DNA of 64,000 nucleotides from Tillus elongatus. Its lineage: Eukaryota > Arthropoda > Insecta > Coleoptera > Cleridae. The position numbers were made by a program, and so were the translations under genes. Each line of letters starts with the position of its first letter. Positions within the stretch are counted from its first letter, which is position 1. Shown in pieces: positions 5,605 to 63,687 of the stretch. Location: the NCBI GenBank assembly GCA_964006375.1, contig OZ023265.1, forward strand, positions 156,404,547 to 156,468,546, read 5' to 3'. The notes beneath the pieces are model-generated. The model ran no database searches. It saw only the letters and a list, made by a program, of their open reading frames with translations, and was not told the DNA's origin.

Positions 5605-5942
5605 TTGACTTGTATTTACTTTTATTGCATTCAGTGGTGCATAACGGTTGACTTATGATTTTGGTAGCTGTATAGTTAGACAGTTTTAGCATTTTAACTC
5701 TTGACTTAACGTTGAGGTCAGCTTTTTGTCGCCTCATTTTATATTTTATACTCTGTATTGTGCCCTCGCAGAAGTATCCTACCGGAAAACTCCGTTTTTC
5801 TGACAAGCCTTTTGTAAATTTTAGATTTCGCTGAGGATGACCGGTTAAAAAGGTCGAAACGAGTCAGGACAAAGAATAAAACATTTGTTTGGAAAGAAAA
5901 AAAAGCCTTTTTATTCAACTCACCCAAAGATGTCAACCCCAA
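5605..5942 (-). repeat. right arm of inverted repeat, Penelope-like terminus
   Basis: Reverse-complement partner of 4535-4860. The plus strand at 5831-5866 reads CUGAGGA, then a GACC/GGUC stem, then GAAAC. A third diverged relative is at about 44961-45000. The arm ends in 'aaaagcctttttattcaactcacccaaag', which abuts the LINE at 5930, so the LINE lost its 3' end at this junction. Confidence 0.6.
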
Positions 5943-7430
5943 ACATTTTGACGTTTAGGAACAATACAGAATCAATTCGCCTAGGCAGTAACTCGGCCTG
6001 TGGTGTACCAGTAACGGGATACACCCGATCTGCTCTGTATGCAAGGAACTTTACAAATACTCGTTGGACATTTTCAAGAGCGCTTATATGGACGTCATAC
6101 AGAGGAGACCACACCACACAGGTATACTCCAGATGCGGCCGCACATATGCACCAAACAATAGCCTCAATGTGTCCGCATTATGAAAGGAACCGGAAGTTC
6201 GAATAAGAAATCCGAGTGTCTTCGATGCCCTAACAATAGCATGTTCATAGTTGTCTACGAAGTCTTTAAAGGTTGCAGGTCTTTGTAGATGCCGTCTATC
6301 TATGAAGTACGGGAAACCTATTATACGGGGGTTGAGCGTATAAAACTTTACCATACATTTATTAATACTCAGTGGGAGGTTGTTAACAGAAGACCAGTGT
6401 TGAACCCTATGCAAACTGCCCTCAAGCACCGAACAGTCGCAGAGATTATCAATGGATAATAAAATTTTTACATCGTCCGCATACAGATGATGGGGTAAGT
6501 CGATCACATATGAAATATCATTCATGAACAGATAAAAAAACAAGGGTCCCAGAACAGATCCCTGTAGAATACCCGAACTATCAAAGACCTCCACGGACTG
6601 ACACCCGTGATAGTGGACAACACCAACTCGATCACGAAGATGGGATCCCATAAACTTCAGCAGGTTCGATAAGAAATCCATGTTATCCAGTTTCCTCAAA
6701 AAAATAAAATAAAATAAAATATCGTGATTCAGCCTATCAAAAGCCCTGAGGAGGTCCAGATAAATGACATTCATCTGCGACGTGTTGCCCAGATATATAT
6801 TCTACTATGCAGATTAAGTTAGTGGTCGTGTATCTGCCCTTCACGAAGCCATTCTTAACGCTAAAAATCACATTTTTTACCACAAATAAAATTTAATTCA
6901 AGACAATCTCAAACAGTCAAGGACTGAACAAGTATGTGAGAACAATCCCTGGCCAGAAAAGCTGGAATTTTTTCAGCGCCCGGTGTGTGCTCCCGTTTGT
7001 TTTTAAGGTAAGCGCTTAAAACCTGTTCCTCCGAAACCCGTTTGATATTCAAGTCAGTCCCACCACTGTAACAGGGAGGATAGCTCACGAGGACGCACTC
7101 GAGCAGGAGCCCTAAAAAACTCCGCAAAGGCACTCACTGCATCTGCATCGCTCGTAACAACCTACCCCCGATATGAAAGCGCAGAATGACCACAGTGACT
7201 TATTTTAAGTTGGCAAACCCCCAGAAGCTACCCGGAACAACGTGGATATTTCTCGCTACCATCTTCTCATAAAGGGATTGTTTAGTTGCAGACAACGCCT
7301 TGACACGTCTTCTAAGTCCCCTGAATAACCCATAGTCCGCAAGATGATTTGATCGCTTGAAGCATGCCCAGGTCTGAAGTTTGCTTGTATAACTTATAAG
7401 TTCAAAGTCAAACTTAAGAGTGCACTAGTC
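5930..7430 (-). pseudogene. non-LTR retrotransposon reverse transcriptase (family NLR2), decayed
   Basis: The minus-strand frame at 5920-6774 encodes 284 residues of a LINE reverse transcriptase. Visible motifs are IYLDLLRAFDRLNHD (RT block 3 region), GILQGSVLGPLFFYLFMNDI, and the catalytic box YADDVK with surrounding HHLYADD. After these come LGFLIRTS and ECVVWSPLY-type thumb motifs. Upstream to about 7430 the coding sequence continues but is broken by frameshifts and stops (for example YLKNKREHTPGAEKIPAFLA at about 6960-7030). An AAAAT microsatellite near 6698-6722 interrupts the RT. The 3' end is replaced by the Penelope-like arm at 5930. It is related to the LINE at 26160-28435. Confidence 0.85.
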
Positions 7431-8270: not shown

Positions 8271-8460
8271 CAATTCTTTTTATATATTTTCTTTTACCAT
8301 CTTTTATCCTCTGATGACGTCAATTTTGTTAGTGGAACGATCGTCAGGTTTTTAAGAATATGTTATGATGATTTCGGTTTTCCACGTGTACTTATCATCT
8401 CAGTTTCCAATCTTCACTTAGTTAGCAAACAAAACTTCCGATATTGGCCTACATAAAATT
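8271..8460 (+). mobile_element. Penelope-like element 3' terminus with degenerate hammerhead motif
   Basis: The block 'ctgatgacgtcaattttg', followed by GGAAC and GTC (8311-8345), lies in the same order as at 37859-37893, where the core is complete. The downstream tail ('ttccacgtgtacttatcat', 'caatcttcacttag') also matches the 37915-37985 tail and the 62640-62720 tail. Only the element terminus is present here. The second catalytic box reads GGAAC instead of GAAAC, so the ribozyme is probably inactive. Confidence 0.65.
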
Positions 8461-16554: not shown

Positions 16555-17535
16555 TCAGGAGTTACGGGACCTAACAACAAAATTCATCTGTTGCATTTAC
16601 CGGTAACCTTCTGACAACAACTTTGTCCAGCTCTTCGACTACCTTTCTGAAAAAAACGACTATCTGATTTCTGAATATCCTTCCTTCCGAACCACTATTC
16701 TTGGTGACTTCGATGCCCATAATAAGGAATGGCTAGGATCTTCAAAAACCGATCCAGGAAAGCCTCTGGCCTTGACGAGATCCCAGCAATTGTTCTCAAA
16801 AAATGCGCACCAGAACTGTCCAGACTCGTCTCTTTTAGACATATTACAATAGAGGCATATTCCCTAGTAACTGGAAAAGTGCTCGAGTACAACCCGTACC
16901 CAAGAAAAGTTCCAAAGCGCTTCCTAGCAACTACAGGCCTATTTCTCTCGTTTCAGTCGTCTCTAAAGTGATGGAAAAGTATATGAACACCGAATTACTA
17001 AAATTTCTTAAAAAACGCAGTCTAATCCACGACAGGCAGTATGGATTCCGTCAGCGCAGATCAACTGCCGACCTCCTTTCCTTTGTCACCCATTCTCGGA
17101 ACAAGTCTATGGAACTACACGGTAAATCCCAGATTGTCACTCTAGACATATTCAAAGCATTCGACCAGGTCTGGCACGCAGCGCTGCTTAACAAATTTCT
17201 GGAAAATCCTGGACTCAATTCAGGAGAGAGCTATATGTCTTATCTTGGTCCCTACCCTAACCCAAAGGCCGCCAGCCCTTGCCCACCGACAGAGCGAATG
17301 CATCCTTTTACTGTCCAGATCACTAGACATAGAACATCTTGTTATGCCCGCTCTATTATCACGAGGATTTCCAAGTTGTGGAACTCCTTGCCGGCACATG
17401 TTTTTCCTTCTTCTCCGAACCTCCAAACCTTCAAGTCCAGAATTAACAAGTTGCCTCTTTCCTCCTTGTCTACACCCAGCGTACGATAGAATTTAGGCTG
17501 TAAGCCCTCGTGGTGTGTTGTTGAAATATAAAAAC
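16555..17535 (+). pseudogene. non-LTR retrotransposon (family NLR1, copy B), internally deleted
   Basis: Starts in the endonuclease domain: NNFVQLFDYLSEKNDYLISE and ILGDFDAHNKEWLGS (16605-16740), where GDFDAHN is the apurinic-like endonuclease motif with its catalytic Asp and Asn/His. A deletion then joins to the reverse transcriptase at KASGLDEIPAIVLKKCAPEL. The RT continues with RQYGFRQRRSTADLLSFVTH and IVTLDIFKAFDQVWHAALLN at about 17030-17190. A second deletion removes the YADD box and joins directly to the C-terminal segment (YARSIITRISKLWNSLPAHV) and the family 3' UTR. It is the only copy here that shows an endonuclease remnant. Confidence 0.85.
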
Positions 17536-26150: not shown

Positions 26151-28604
<2,454 letters not shown>

Positions 28605-36689: not shown

Positions 36690-38000
36690 CTTACTTTCAT
36701 TTTCTGAATCCGTCCAAAATCCACTCATTGCAGACCTTTTCATGGGTAGATTTGAGACGGGTTTAGAAAATGAAGGTGACTACTTTCCTAGGGTATAATT
36801 CCGTTATGTGGACGATATTTCTCAAGTGTTTAACACAAATATATGCAACGTAGATGATTTTGTTAAAAGACTGAACTGTCAATTTGATTCAACAAAATTC
36901 ACCCACGAATGACAAGTTAACAGTAAACTTCCTTTTCTAGATTATTCTAGGTAAAAATAATGACTCTTTTGAATTCGATGTCCACAGAAAGGTAACTACA
37001 ACTTAAAGTTACATTCAAAATGACTCATATCATACGTTTGCACAAACAATGTCAGGTTTAAATTTATTAGTAAATAGATTAACAAAATTTCCCTTAAGTG
37101 AAAGTAAATATGGTAGAGAATTAGATTACATTAAAAACGTGACCAAATATTACGAGTATTCGGACTGCTTAGTGGAAAAATTAATTAATAGACACGGAAG
37201 AAAGAAAATGTTAGCAGAATGCACGATATTCAGAAAAGATCAAATAGAGAAAAAAATTGTTTGCCTACCTTTTGAACAGCGTATCACAAGGGGTCTCGAG
37301 AACATTTTTAAGAAAGCCGATTTGCCTTTTTCGAAAAAAAAAAAGAAGTAATTTGTTAGGTCATACGAAATATAAAGATAAAGCCACTGAAATGTCCGGT
37401 ATCTAGGTTGTAAAGATTGTAATCTTAAATACGTTTGGCAGATTAAGAGAATCATTGAGACTAGATTTCGTGAACATCTGGCACAGCTGAGATACGGTAG
37501 TGTCATGCGTGTCACAACATATCTGGGATAATAACCACCACATTGATAAAGACAATCTGAAACTTATCAAAGTGTTAGAAAGCCAGCAAAGCTAGATTCG
37601 TACAAAATTACCAAATTTTCCAAAACCGAGCGCCGCCACTGACTTATAGTCCGTTGTTTGCGCTCTGCCTTTGATACAGATAAATATTGCGAAACTTGGC
37701 AGGTAAAAATATGAAGGAAGTTCAAAGCCTCGTCCGGTAATTAAAATACAGTACACAGAAAATTTGGCGATGTCGTCTCCCTCTCGGTTTCGATCTTTAC
37801 CTAAGACTCACTATAAAAGGTGATGCTTAGTAGTAAGTAGATTAGATCTTTTCATCCACTGATGACGCTAACCTTGTTTGTGAAACAAAAGTCAGATCTT
37901 TAAAAAGATGTGTTGTGGTGATTTGCGTTCTCCAAGTGTACTTATCAGTGCCCATCACAGGTTCAAATCTTCACATAGTGGAGAGTCGTCCAACCATATA
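36690..38000 (+). pseudogene. Penelope-like element: RT end, GIY-YIG remnant and 3' terminus
   Basis: Translation gives PLIADLFMGRFETGLENEGD then FRYVDDIS, the Penelope-type catalytic box with YVDD, at about 36800-36830. It continues KLPFLD, the KADLPFSKKK linker, and a GIY-YIG endonuclease remnant with GCKDCNLKYVWQ and RIIETRFREHLAQLRYG (37405-37500), followed by a terminal KLDSYKITKFSKTERRH. In-frame stops and frameshifts are frequent. The 3' region carries a hammerhead-type core at 37859-37893. Similar GIY-YIG and 3' fragments are at 59930-60115, 8271-8460 and 62630-62725. Confidence 0.85.
37859..37893 (+). ncRNA. hammerhead ribozyme motif in Penelope-like 3' terminus
   Basis: The core CUGAUGA (37859-37865) is followed by an imperfect stem II (CGC-U-AAC paired with GUU-U-GUG), then GAAAC, an AAAA loop, and GUC at 37891-37893. 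This matches the minimal type I hammerheads known in Penelope-like elements. Stem I next to the core is weak. AGATCT blocks lie just outside on both sides and could pair, but with unequal spacing. Activity is uncertain. Confidence 0.6.
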
Positions 38001-52330: not shown

Positions 52331-52482
52331 AGCTAATTCAGAATAAATTGACAGCAAAAGTGTTTTAAATTATATTCAGCATTTACGCTTTAATAACTTG
52401 TTTTAGAAACATTTGACTTGGACACGATTACAATTTCCTTTATGGTTTAGATAGGCTTGTAAGACTAGATGTATTCTCACAA

Positions 52483-52543
52483 TAATTAGAACCGCAAACC
52501 GGTTTCGCTCTAATTAGAGCTCATCAGTACGGTATACTAATTA
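52483..52543 (-). ncRNA. hammerhead ribozyme, array 1 copy 1
   Basis: On the minus strand: core CUGAUGA, stem II GCUCU/AGAGC with AAUU loop, GAAA, self-complementary ACCGGU-like stem III (here ACCGGU followed by U at the cleavage position) and inner stem I CCGUA with UGCGG. An outer stem I of UAAUUAG with CUAAUUA is separated by an internal loop. Predicted cleavage falls between 52497 and 52496, with U instead of C at position 17, which the UH rule allows. Confidence 0.8.
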
Positions 52544-52790
52544 CAGCGAGAACACATCTATAAAGTAATACGGCTATTGCCAGCCTCCTAGATAATTGTA
52601 AGATGTACGACAGGGTCGCCATCTCGGTGTGGCACCAGGTAGTATCTTATCACGACAGCTCCAAATAACACAAAATCTTATAAAATAGAGACTGTGTACA
52701 ACCAACAAACAATTTTGTAAATTGCCAGCCCTGGCCCATTTCTTACCTAAGGTAGGGACAATGTATGTAAGGCTAGATGTATTCTCACCA

Positions 52791-52851
52791 TAACTAGAAC
52801 CGCAGACCGGTTTCGCTCTAATTAGAGCTCGTCAGTACGGTATACTAATTA
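52791..52851 (-). ncRNA. hammerhead ribozyme, array 1 copy 2
   Basis: Minus-strand core CUGACGA, stem II GCUCU/AGAGC, GAAA, ACCGGU, C17, inner stem I CCGUA/UGCGG. The outer stem I pairs UAAUUAG with CUAGUUA, where an A-to-G change keeps pairing as a G-U wobble. Predicted cleavage between 52805 and 52804, 308 nt from copy 1. Confidence 0.85.
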
Positions 52852-53013
52852 CTGCGAAAACACACCTATGAAGTAATACGGTTATGGTAGCTAGCCTCCT
52901 AGAACATTGTGAGATGTGCGACAGGGTCGCCATCTCGGTGCGGAACCAGGTAGTATATTGTCACAACAGCTCCAAATAACACAAAATCTTTAAAATAGAG
53001 ACTGTGTACAACT

Positions 53014-53058
53014 GTAATGAGCTCTAATTAGAGCGAAACCATTCTGTGGTCCTAATCA
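53014..53058 (+). ncRNA. degenerate hammerhead at inversion junction, array 1
   Basis: Stem II and GAAA are intact (gctctaattagagc, gaaacc), but the first core box is cut at the inversion junction (actgtaatga) and the cleavage region reads ATTC. It should be inactive. Confidence 0.7.
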
Positions 53059-53130
53059 TGGTGACAAAACATCTAGCCCTACATACATTGTACCTAAGTT
53101 AGGGAAGAAATGGACCAGGGCTCTAGTCAG

Positions 53131-55905: not shown

Positions 55906-56210
55906 AGCTGTTCGATAAAAAATAGCTGTTTAGTTTTTATCTCAAAAACGCGTTGTTTAACTGTTCGGAATCACCCTGAACATATAAATTATCACAAATA
56001 AATACAGAAAGTGAGATATAAGACACGAAGCACGTGCCGCCACCTCGTTGCGGAACCAAGTACTATGTTGTCACGGCAGCTTAAAATAACACAAAGTGTT
56101 AAAAATAGAGACTATAAACAACCAACTAACAATTTAGTAAATTATTAGCCCTCGTCCATTTCTACCCTTATTAAGGGACAGAGTATCTAAGGCTAGATGC
56201 ATTCTCACCA

Positions 56211-56271
56211 CAATTAGAACCGCAGACCGGTTTCGCTCTAATTAGAGCTCGTCAGTACTGCATACTAATTG
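56211..56271 (-). ncRNA. hammerhead ribozyme, array 2 copy 1
   Basis: Minus-strand core CUGACGA, stem II GCUCU/AGAGC, GAAA, ACCGGU, C17. Inner stem I CAGUA/UGCGG has one mismatch (A with G). Outer stem I CAAUUAG/CUAAUUG is a perfect 7-bp helix. Predicted cleavage between 56225 and 56224. Confidence 0.83.
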
Positions 56272-56520
56272 AAGCGAAAATACATCTATAAAGTAATACG
56301 GCTATGGGAGTCAGCGATCCAACACTAAGTGAAATATAAGACACGCAGCACGTGCCGCCACCTTGTTGCAGAACCAAGTAGTATGTTGCCACGGCAGCTC
56401 CAAATAACACAAAGTGTTAAAAATAGAGACTTTATGCAACCAACTAACAATTTAGTAAATTCTCAGCCCTGGTCCATTTATACCCTAATATAGGGACAAA
56501 GTATAGATGCATTCTCACCA

Positions 56521-56581
56521 CAATTAGAACCGCAGACCGGTTTCGCTCTAATTAGAGCTCGTCAGTACGGCATAATAATTG
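56521..56581 (-). ncRNA. hammerhead ribozyme, array 2 copy 2
   Basis: All core boxes intact: CUGACGA, GAAA, C17. Inner stem I CCGUA/UGCGG and stem II GCUCU/AGAGC are fully paired. Outer stem I CAAUUA/UAAUUG keeps 6 pairs. Predicted cleavage between 56535 and 56534, exactly 310 nt from the neighbouring site. Confidence 0.85.
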
Positions 56582-56798
56582 CAGCGAAAATACACCTACA
56601 CAGTAATACGGCTATGGTAGCCGCCCTTCCCGCAGTATACAGTTTATTTTTAACACTGTGTGTTATTTGCAGCTGCCGTGACAACATACTACTTGGTTCC
56701 GCAACGAAGTGGCGGCACGTGCTTCGTGTCTTATATCTCACTTAGTATTGAAAGGCTGGCTACAATAGCCGTATTGCTTTATAGGTGTATTTTCGCTA

Positions 56799-56859
56799 CA
56801 ATTAGTATGCCGTACTGACGAGCTCTAATTGGAGCGAAACCGGTCTGTGGTTCTAATTG
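56799..56859 (+). ncRNA. hammerhead ribozyme, array 2 inverted copy
   Basis: Plus-strand version with an intact core. Stem II GCUCU/GGAGC uses a U-G wobble where other copies have U-A. Inner stem I CCGUA/UGUGG uses a G-U wobble where others have G-C. Both changes preserve pairing. Outer stem I CAAUUAG/CUAAUUG is perfect. Confidence 0.85.
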
Positions 56860-56885
56860 TGGTGAGAATGCATCTAGCCTTATAA

Positions 56886-57620
56886 ATACAGTAGGTAATT
56901 TGTTGCATCTTCTTGGTTTAGAAAATTATAGGGAAAATAAAACAGCATTACAACAATTATTGTGCCATTATATTGCAAACACTTTTATATTTCTCATACA
57001 TAAAAACATTAACAATTGTTTTCTCTTTATATTGTTATGAAGCGTATATCATTACTTTTTCTAGGCTCAATGCCCTAAACTGGAATTTTGTTCCTCAGTT
57101 TTGAATTATTGCATATTTGTAGACAAACAACAACATATAGTTTCAGAGACTGGCTCCTTTAACATCTAAACTTTAATATAGCTTTATTAATAGTTAAATA
57201 AAGGATGAAAACAAAGTTCAGTTTCTCTACAGATGTATGAGTTCCTTATTTACATCTATTTTTGCAGCACCTGGTTGGTTAACTAACGGGTTTATAACGT
57301 TTGGGCTAATAATTAGGCAGAACATTTTTACATAGTCAATTTAAATTTCTGCAAGCATATTACAACCTATTTATCTAATAATCAAACTGGTAACTACTAG
57401 AGATCATTCCATATTAAGTCGCTAACCACAGAAGTTAACAATTTATCGCGTGGATCAGTTGTTATTACATTAACGATTTTATTGAACCTTGCTGGGACAT
57501 TTTAATTTTTTTGGCCTTCTTTTTAAAAATAGAAATAATAGTTTTCTCCTATTGAGCAATGTTTTGTCCAATGGAGCAGATTTTCTAACATACATTAATT
57601 TATCGGACCTTGATTATTAT
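56886..57620. other. no recognisable gene
   Basis: AT-rich sequence with no coding signal. A 'aatagaaataatag...attgagcaa' segment at 57527-57565 recurs in diverged form at 59279-59316 on the other side of the palindromic element. Confidence 0.4.
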
Positions 57621-59594: not shown

Positions 59595-59798
59595 TTAAAT
59601 TTCAGTTTCTTGCCCTTCTCCAGCGTCAATTTTGTAACCATATTTTTCTTGCTCCTTAAAGTAGTTTTCGTCTGCAAGCAGCTGCATATACCAAGAGCGG
59701 TTATCAAAATTACCAGCTGTTCCCCCGTACTCGCTAGGTAAAATATCAGTCGATAAGAAGGCATGTAATGAACTTAAGTCGTTTCCATGGAGAAATAT
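59595..59798 (-). CDS. CRAL-TRIO domain protein, terminal exon
   Basis: The minus-strand exon begins after the acceptor 'ttttaattttcag' (59799-59811). It encodes 67 residues: IFLHGNDLSSLHAFLSTDIL, PSEYGG, FDNRSWYMQLL, YFKEQEKYGYKI and a polar C-terminus ending ETEI and a stop. The IFLHGN...SLH...LPxEYGG series is the end of the lipid-binding CRAL-TRIO fold (alpha-tocopherol transfer protein, clavesin, retinaldehyde-binding relatives). It joins in phase 0 to the exon at 62817-63121. The family binds small hydrophobic ligands in the cytosol. The specific ligand cannot be told from this. Only the last two exons are in the window. Confidence 0.88.
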   Translation of the reverse strand: MFLHGNDLSSLHAFLSTDILPSEYGGTAGNFDNRSWYMQLLADENYFKEQEKYGYKIDAGEGQETEI

Positions 59799-59929
59799 CT
59801 GAAAATTAAAACTGTATGTGAGCAAAAGTAAAAAAAAAAATCATAACATTAAAAAACTTGCCAGATAACTCAAAATAAAAATATAAACCACCAAAAAGTC
59901 ATGGATAATTTAAAAACCGTACAAGGCTT

Positions 59930-60115
59930 ATAAACTTGAACGTGTTACGCAAACTAAAAGATGTTTTAAAACTCGGTTCAGAAAACATTTAGCACAACTA
60001 AAATATGATAATATAATAGGTAAGTGATAGGTTGATCAGCATTTTTGGAATAATAATCACCACGAGTAGGTAATGCGACACTTTTGTGATGACGAACGCC
60101 TCCACTTTTTCCTTC
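59930..60115 (+). pseudogene. Penelope-like GIY-YIG fragment
   Basis: The translation contains KTRFRKHLAQLKYDNIIG and DQHFWNNNHHE-like sequence. It corresponds to RIIETRFREHLAQLRYG and the following segment in the Penelope-like element at 36690-38000. It is a short, broken fragment inside the CRAL-TRIO intron. Confidence 0.65.
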
Positions 60116-62160: not shown

Positions 62161-62629
62161 ACGACTAAAAAGATGTGGAAATATTTAACAATTTACAAAG
62201 CTGTCACTCTTTAGCTATCGAATGTACACAAAAAAGTGTTGCATACGTACGTCCTCGTAAATTCCTAACAATTTTTGTTTATAACCTCACTCTGTTGGGA
62301 CATTGCTGCAATACGTTCTCATATAGAGTGCCAGCACACAAGCAAAAACAACGCAACTGTCGAGTGAGTACATGATGTGCTTTACTGAGAGCACCGTCTT
62401 CCGACAGATATCGTTACTCAGACCAAATTTATGCTAGTAAACGTAAAATTGATGTTTGAATAAGGAGCACCTTTAGGTGACACTGAGCGCGAACTAGATA
62501 TACTAGTTGACAAGCAATCGCTTGCAATACCCTCTACAAAAGTATATAGACAAACACTTGTTGTTTGGGCAAAAGTCATGTACAAGGAATATAGCCTGTA
62601 TACCTTCGTGGGGGGCGTTATTTGCGAAA
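62161..62629. other. intronic sequence, no recognisable gene
   Basis: No coding signature. This is part of the CRAL-TRIO intron, upstream of the piggyBac remnant in its own orientation. Confidence 0.4.
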
Positions 62630-62725
62630 CTATTGCCAGGTCTGAAAAATTGCTTTTGGTGAATTGGGTTCTTCAAAATCTACTTGTCAGTGCTCATCAC
62701 AAGTTCGAATCTTCACTCGGTAGTT
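62630..62725 (+). mobile_element. Penelope-like 3' tail fragment
   Basis: The sequence 'ttcttcaaaatctacttgtcagtgctcatcacaagttcgaatcttcac' matches the 3' tail of the Penelope-like elements at 37930-37980 and 8375-8440. The ribozyme portion is not present. Confidence 0.65.
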
Positions 62726-62816
62726 TATCAAAATTGTCTTAAAGCACAAGCACTGGCTTTGGATGATACAATGTAAAATTTAGGTAAAAAAAGTGAAGCA
62801 GAAGAGTATAACTTAC

Positions 62817-63121
62817 TCGTTTTCTGATTTTTTCCTTAATAAACGGTTTTAGCACAGCCATGACAGCATCGAAGTAAAAAGGCTCATTGATGATGTGGAA
62901 GCCCTTGAATCTCAGTGGAAAGGTTTCTTGCACCAACTCAACCATTCTTTTTGCATAATAGGGGGTGAAAAACTTGGCGTGTTGCAGACTTAGACCAGCT
63001 AAATCCAACAACACCACTATACCTGCCACTTGAGTTTCAGGTTCACGTACAACACACTCCAATGCTAACACATTTGTTCGGAATATATCTTCTATCGTTA
63101 CTCTTGATGAATCAAAATAAT
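62817..63121 (-). CDS. CRAL-TRIO domain protein, penultimate exon
   Basis: The minus-strand exon is 305 nt. The acceptor is 'ttgttatttttag' just above 63121, and the donor GTAAGT is at 62811-62816. It encodes about 101 residues: DYFDSSRVTIEDIFRTN, REPETQVAG, IVVLLDLAGLSLQHAKFFTP, YYAKRMVELVQETFPLRFKG, FHIINEPFYFDAVMAVLKPF and IKEKIRKR. The order (DLAGLS, QETFPLRFKGFHIINEP, FDAVMAVLKPFIKEKIR) is diagnostic of the CRAL-TRIO lipid-binding domain. The frame enters in phase 1 and leaves in phase 0, and joins to IFLHGND in the next exon. Upstream exons lie beyond 64000 or were not recognised. The ~3.0-kb intron to the last exon is full of transposons. Confidence 0.9.
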
Positions 63122-63687
63122 CTAAAAATAACAACAAATAAAAGTAGAGATTATGGTAAGCACTAGTATGTGCATTTTGGAAAAAGTAGATTCTTTGAAT
63201 CTACCGCCGCCTAGCTTTGTACGTGCTATACCTAAATGAAACTAGTAGCTAGTAGGTGAAAGTATAAAAACAAATTCTTGGAAGGATTGTCGGTAATGGC
63301 GCTTTTTTCTTTGTACTTTACATCAACGTGAAATAATTAGCAAAATGCAATTTGTAGGTATTGTATAAATCAAACATTCGTAAGAACTATGGTTTTAAGC
63401 TTGCTCATCATAAAAACTGTGTCTGGAATTACCAGTAATAACTGCAGAATGTATTAAAAGGACTGGCCGCCAGGTAATTTTATTCGTATCTTAAATCTCG
63501 TAAGAAGACATTAAAGGGGATTAGGGCTCTTTTATTTACACGCCAGTAGTGTCTAGGATTGAAATAATTTGGTTCTCTTATTTAGTTTGCAAGTGCTGCT
63601 TCTGTTTAATTTCACGCACAGTGAATTTACTTCATCTTTAGACAGTGTTAGTGTAGGGTTGTTTTTATTATTTTATACTGTAAAAAA
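63122..63687. other. upstream intron, no recognisable exon
   Basis: On the minus strand this should be intron of the CRAL-TRIO gene. I see no further exon of that gene here. The plus strand has no clear promoter. Confidence 0.45.

Follow-up and report, generated by a model that had tools for sequence, protein, structure and literature searches.

The locus at 55998-56891 of the window (the whole 64-kb stretch of DNA analysed here) is best read as one insertion of a non-autonomous hammerhead retrozyme, of about 318 nt per unit, that uses the Penelope-like element (PLE) machinery of its host; we put the probability of this reading at roughly 0.8. What supports it is a head-to-head layout, two preferred 3' ends that pair as A with B, target duplications, and host PLEs that show this two-end pattern as well. 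That the locus is a retrozyme-type element is, judged from its sequence, nearly certain.

The insertion and its hammerheads

The insertion is single, 874 bp long and flanked by a perfect 10-bp target duplication, ATAAATACAG, with identical copies on the left (55998-56007) and right (56882-56891). It consists of nearly two tandem units on the minus strand (56008-56629), mapped to a real 318-nt unit and read as a first cDNA with its RNA-sense 3' end (site B) at 56008, lying head-to-head with one partial inverted unit on the plus strand (56635-56881), read as a second cDNA whose RNA-sense 3' end (site A, CTTA) falls at 56881/56882 by mapping and sequence. The first-pass annotation had proposed a retrozyme-like array of ~310-bp units, two in tandem and one inverted. 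All three are present, with predicted cuts on the minus strand between 56225 and 56224 and between 56535 and 56534, and on the plus strand between 56845 and 56846. The family unit is usually 318 nt; at this locus, with unit 2 missing 8 nt, the minus-strand cuts are 310 nt apart. The whole is framed by a target duplication and includes an inverted part joined head-to-head; the apparent array is therefore one insertion. The element is of the retrozyme type, and thousands of copies of it lie dispersed in the genome. The insertion has 42.1% G+C and a longest stop-free stretch of 83 codons, and the frames of the unit, on inspection, contain no open reading frame (ORF) for a reverse transcriptase (RT) with GIY-YIG.

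A covariance model trained on 26 family copies, all from outside the window, placed three type I hammerheads well above chance at 87.8-89.4 bits (E ~1e-22): unit 1 at 56211-56271 (minus strand, 87.9 bits, E 4.5e-22), unit 2 at 56521-56581 (minus, 89.4 bits, E 1.7e-22) and the inverted unit at 56799-56859 (plus, 87.8 bits, E 4.9e-22). At gathering score no Rfam family was found in the window; at a lax threshold Hammerhead_HH9 (RF02275) was the best Rfam match to all three (26.7, 24.8 and 18.7 bits; E 0.00037, 0.0014 and 0.13), yet these 19-27 bits lie far under its gathering score of 52. As the first pass had listed, the three share CUGACGA, GAAA, the cleavage site (GUC/U, cut at the slash) and an outer helix, of CAAUUA/UAAUUG type, past an internal loop. 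The elements run in the order CUGACGA, stem II GCUC/GAGC with loop UAAUUA, GAAA, A-CCGG-U and GUC/U; stem I has 6 bp, followed by the internal loop and the outer helix, which grows to ~20 bp when 100-nt pieces are folded.

Helix III is a single A-U pair closed by the palindrome CCGG. Axolotl hammerheads with a weak, one-pair palindromic helix III are described, in the available part of PMC7229834, as cleaving poorly as monomers and well as dimers, and by analogy the form seen here suggests a ribozyme that works as a dimer. The hammerheads had been called intact: this is true of the core, but with such a helix III, and an A.G mismatch in stem I of unit 1, not necessarily of fast monomer cleavage. 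A common 61-nt structure had also been claimed; minimum-free-energy folding did not return three identical 61-nt hammerhead folds. Pieces of 100 nt gave a common long stem I and stem II with the core partly drawn as paired (ACUG/CGGU); for units 2 and 3 alone, pieces of 68 nt adopted another fold.

Compensatory changes were found in 0 of 17 pairs of the family alignment, in which 93.9% of cells pair versus 25-43% with the partner slid. A loose regular expression for the core matched 58 of 90 aligned copies, a favourable sample consisting of those nearest the window's copy. Where the core has no gap (65 copies), 61 carry the loop CCGG, and the cut follows C in 59, U in 3 and G in 3. The two units whose circle was predicted come out 68% and 72% paired (z -5.3 and -6.5 relative to 30 shuffles each); stems I and II form in these predictions, and the core is partly drawn as paired. 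A lone Hammerhead_1 match on C1 (L001:1500-1546, placed from 1.5-kb flanks) reached 33.7 bits, just under the Rfam cut-off of 34; it was rejected as a family member, since a comparison with the retrozyme unit at E up to 1 showed no similarity.

Metazoan non-LTR retrozymes (Cervera and de la Pena 2020, PMC7229834, in the part available) have a type I hammerhead, tandem units of ~170-400 nt, low G+C, no ORF of note, a dispersed distribution and a highly self-paired predicted RNA; the axolotl element Amex1 has the same form of helix III as the window's hammerheads. The element analysed here likewise combines a type I hammerhead with tandem units bearing one hammerhead each (310 and 318 nt, within ~150-450 bp), G+C below 50%, no protein-coding frame, many dispersed copies (2860 exact cores), a target duplication longer than 4 bp (10 bp at 55998-56891) and a stable, highly self-paired RNA by prediction. 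We read it as a new family of a kind already known. The head-to-head layout and the two PLE-like end sites found here are undescribed in that part of the paper. Plant LTR retrozymes differ in carrying a type III hammerhead within LTRs and a 4-bp target duplication, against type I and 10 bp here.

A dispersed family with two preferred 3' ends

A search of the 1.72-Gb host genome gave 2860 occurrences of the exact 31-nt core and 0 of its reversed pattern. In the first family search 40 places, scattered across chromosomes, were scored among 4261 first-look candidates. A second array in the window, at 52458-53122, lies outside the first-pass finding and is related to the 56008-56881 family; the window therefore holds two retrozyme insertion loci, 55998-56891 and 52458-53122. 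The second belongs to a divergent subfamily with ~311-nt spacing that is itself dispersed (40 scored of 3809 first-look candidates). It has hammerheads at 52791-52851 (minus strand, 87.3 bits) and 52483-52543 (minus, 87.1 bits), and a decayed one in its inverted part at 53000-53057 (plus, 32 bits, E 4.2e-06).

Copies at different loci lie at a mean distance of 8.9%, hence roughly 4% from a common source, and the sampled copies are by this measure probably not recent. In a within-array template test, the fraction of derived changes in common was 24% for same-strand pairs (a value inflated by L033, L044 and the subfamily array at 52 kb of the window), 10% for opposite-strand pairs and 3.6% for pairs from different loci; one array (L042) shares 6 derived changes across strands and many share none. 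L033:1-2876 is a satellite-like tandem run whose units have derived changes in common, and most dispersed copies are unlike it. At L022:1103-1810 a retrozyme copy is apparently split by a short inverted-repeat sequence, with a 9-bp retrozyme target duplication enclosing both.

Mapping to the real unit covered 41 stretches, the two of the window and 39 loci from other parts of the genome; with phase counted from the first base after the cut, it gave 45 copy clusters. RNA-sense 3' ends cluster at two places: site A (defined as phase 30-50), at phase ~37 after TTGTGGTGA...CTTA, and site B (phase 208-228), at phase ~219 after TCTCACTTAGTG. On the retrozyme RNA a start at site B would be expected at CACTTAGTG. 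The 3' ends number 22 at A, 37 at B and 11 elsewhere. The 25 clusters that have 3' ends on both flanks comprise 16 A/B, 2 B/B, 0 A/A, 5 B/other and 2 A/other; under independent ends, at least 16 A/B in 18 has P = 2.5e-4. The second array is among the 7 of 25 with one end that is neither A nor B: unit mapping puts its left 3' end at site A (phase 39) and its right end at phase 78. The remaining 20 clusters show only one 3' end, which lies at B in 12, at A in 4 and elsewhere in 4. The 5' ends join mid-insertion at variable points.

Target duplications accompany this layout. A duplication score of at least 7 was reached by 16 of the 45 clusters, versus 3.5% of 200 random pairings, and by 11 of the 16 A/B copies; the 16 matched target stretches are 7-14 bp long and 73% A+T, at least one of them (L024) being a simple AT repeat. 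The first 100 exact cores listed on C1 include 10 neighbour pairs within 1 kb, 8 of them head-to-head (all minus-then-plus), 2 tandem (309 and 318 nt) and 0 tail-to-tail. Among the rows of the match table for the second subfamily, 7 of 92 stop at query positions 294-296 and 3 of 92 at 125-127, apparently the positions of B and A.

Host PLEs and the match of ends

A GIY-YIG search of the genome gave 14221 first-look candidates; 150 were scored and 150 of 150 matched. One locus (L059) has a 478-codon open frame, which we read as PLE RT plus GIY-YIG. Just before their ends the PLEs have a hammerhead-like motif, CUGANGA...GAAA-CGAUCG-U(A/C)-AGG with the cut before AGG, which has one extra base ahead of stem II. 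In an alignment of 24 such motifs (L049 dropped), helix III is one pair with the palindromic loop CGATCG in 22 of 24, and 139 of 144 stem II cells are paired, two pairs compensating on both sides. After the hammerhead comes TTGTGGTGA, then end site A (GTGTACTTA) and then B (TTTTCACATAGTG, or TCTTCACTTAGTG in another subfamily), the distance from A to B being 33 nt in 19 of 22. We recognised 51 ends (29 A and 22 B) in 42 of the 50 stretches examined; in the other 8 the pattern recognised no end. Opposite-strand end pairs are 8 A/B and 1 A/A, one A/B pair joining L080 with L081 from two stretches 2.9 kb apart.

This two-end pattern of the host PLEs is explained by published work, according to which two reverse transcription start sites delimit the PLE 'tail' and both target strands are cut and extended by the PLE protein (PMC11167929, in the part available). 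Rotifer PLEs form head-to-head copies with the tail on one of them and 8-10 bp duplications, according to the available part of PMC3846280. Tailed PLEs in these two accounts have in common with the retrozyme head-to-head copies, two end sites mostly one per flank, short target duplications and a hammerhead with a weak helix III. The retrozyme insertions are head-to-head and have two end sites, one per flank in the 16 A/B of 25 two-flank copies. They differ from PLEs, which encode RT and GIY-YIG, in that the unit has a frame for neither and no L059-type frame bounds the units in 42 stretches; moreover, the retrozyme A and B sites are ~180 nt apart versus 33 nt in most PLE copies.

The window itself holds Penelope-like ORF remains of the proposed partner type at 36718-37671 (plus strand; tblastn with the L059 frame, best E 4.4e-45), and at 37827-37980 (plus) a PLE hammerhead-like region and tail that stops at PLE site B and is 85% identical to the tail region of L057. 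PLE tail regions at 8299-8422 and 37827-37980 reach PLE site B, and one at 62618-62717 reaches a diverged site B; a diverged PLE ORF fragment lies at 59692-60063 (36% identity to the L059 frame, E 1e-9). At L071:2066-2452 a retrozyme copy sits inside PLE ORF remains and ends at site A.

For the B end of PLE subfamily 2 (one copy), the best of the 318 phases of the unit is 220, where 10 terminal bases are identical; subfamily 1 likewise favours 220, with 5 terminal bases and 10 of 14 identical. The B end of a PLE copy from the window has its best suffix match at 218 and a tie on identity. With the A end of the PLEs, the exact suffix favours phase 217 (5 bases), then 37 and 206 (4 each), and identity over 14 bases favours 266 (9), then 37 and 41 (8). 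The PLE tail piece TTGTGGTGA occurs once in the retrozyme unit, 11 nt after the cut. Shuffle tests on the short end pieces gave p = 0.022 for A, and p = 0.81 and 0.20 for B (imperfect B end of the 56008 locus). By these comparisons the sequences at sites A and B both appear similar to PLE ends, with the closer terminal match at B; the argument for a link to PLEs is carried by the layout more than by the short end matches.

Proposed mobilisation and alternatives

From the sequence we infer that a PLE RT moves the retrozyme, copying from both target strands, and likewise the enzyme, the circle and all RNA steps of the following cycle. Genomic units would be transcribed; as in published retrozymes, the hammerheads, probably dimerising through the CCGG loop, would cut the RNA into units, some of which a host ligase would circularise. 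A PLE protein would then recognise start sites A and B on the RNA, nick both strands of an A+T-rich target and begin a cDNA on each flank, one from A and the other from B. Both cDNAs would proceed toward the RNA 5' end, often past the cleavage site and for more than one unit, before meeting 5'-to-5', and repair would duplicate ~7-14 bp of target. As the cDNAs run through the hammerhead cut and are often longer than one unit, the template must have been either circular or an uncut multimer.

The A/B rule suggests that a single RNA is engaged at both sites, each serving a different target strand. In vitro the PLE start site is the same on both target strands and hammerhead cleavage is unneeded for insertion (PMC11167929, available part), so something else would have to enforce the pairing. 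We tentatively propose, at slightly less than even odds, that animal retrozymes are parasites of PLE RTs: one RNA circle would carry both PLE start sites, a PLE dimer would load both, and each target strand would be extended from a different site. If true, the use of a different site around the circle for each strand would explain flanks of A plus B and not A plus A. In SINE/LINE pairs, a non-coding element borrows the enzyme of an autonomous element through a shared end. The borrowing proposed here is similar, with a PLE as the partner and two end sites shared.

The same layout and PLE-like ends would be expected if the units were no independent retrozyme but solo pseudo-LTRs, or reduced fragments, of a PLE family not yet seen, from which they had inherited their ends, and solo pseudo-LTRs and captured sequences with target duplications are known in rotifers (PMC3846280, available part). 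We consider this unlikely. PLE ORF matches lie near units in only 3 of 42 stretches (L006, L037 and L041), 0.6-2 kb off and not bounding them; the units form direct repeats of ~318-nt period that no ORF separates; and in a comparison of the unit with 30 PLE loci at E up to 1, DNA similarity was confined to four stretches, read as nearby retrozyme copies or fragments, one of which (L050) matches at 79% over 150 nt. As two arrays already fall within the 64 kb of the window, these 4 of 30 loci are not taken as a sign that retrozymes are enriched beside PLEs.

Twin priming yields the same 5'-to-5' topology, and LINE-type RT remains are present in the window, so a LINE might instead move the retrozyme, the head-to-head form being a product of twin priming. 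This is improbable, since the two internal sites at which the 3' ends gather are similar to PLE ends, and their A/B pairing mirrors that of PLEs. Ordinary satellite DNA, spread by unequal crossing-over and bearing the hammerhead incidentally, is less probable still: the long tandem run at L033, with derived changes common to its units, would fit it, but the copies lie scattered over chromosomes, bear target duplications and stop at preferred ends.

The enzyme that mobilises animal retrozymes has only been proposed, from co-occurrence, tandem copies and shared hammerheads, in the available parts of PMC7229834, PMC7761336 and PMC11722881; PLE-like ends, the head-to-head layout and one site per flank now offer a sequence-level link to it. 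The literature searched, with incomplete coverage, contained no report of PLE-type ends in retrozymes.

As to a tRNA-like origin, ARAGORN in its bacterial setting found no tRNA in the whole window. Remains of RVT_1 reverse transcriptases, probably of LINEs, lie at 5920-6774, 16968-17489 and 27324-28331, and a CRAL/TRIO-domain frame at 62739-63137 (minus strand, E 7e-21) is probably a host-gene exon.
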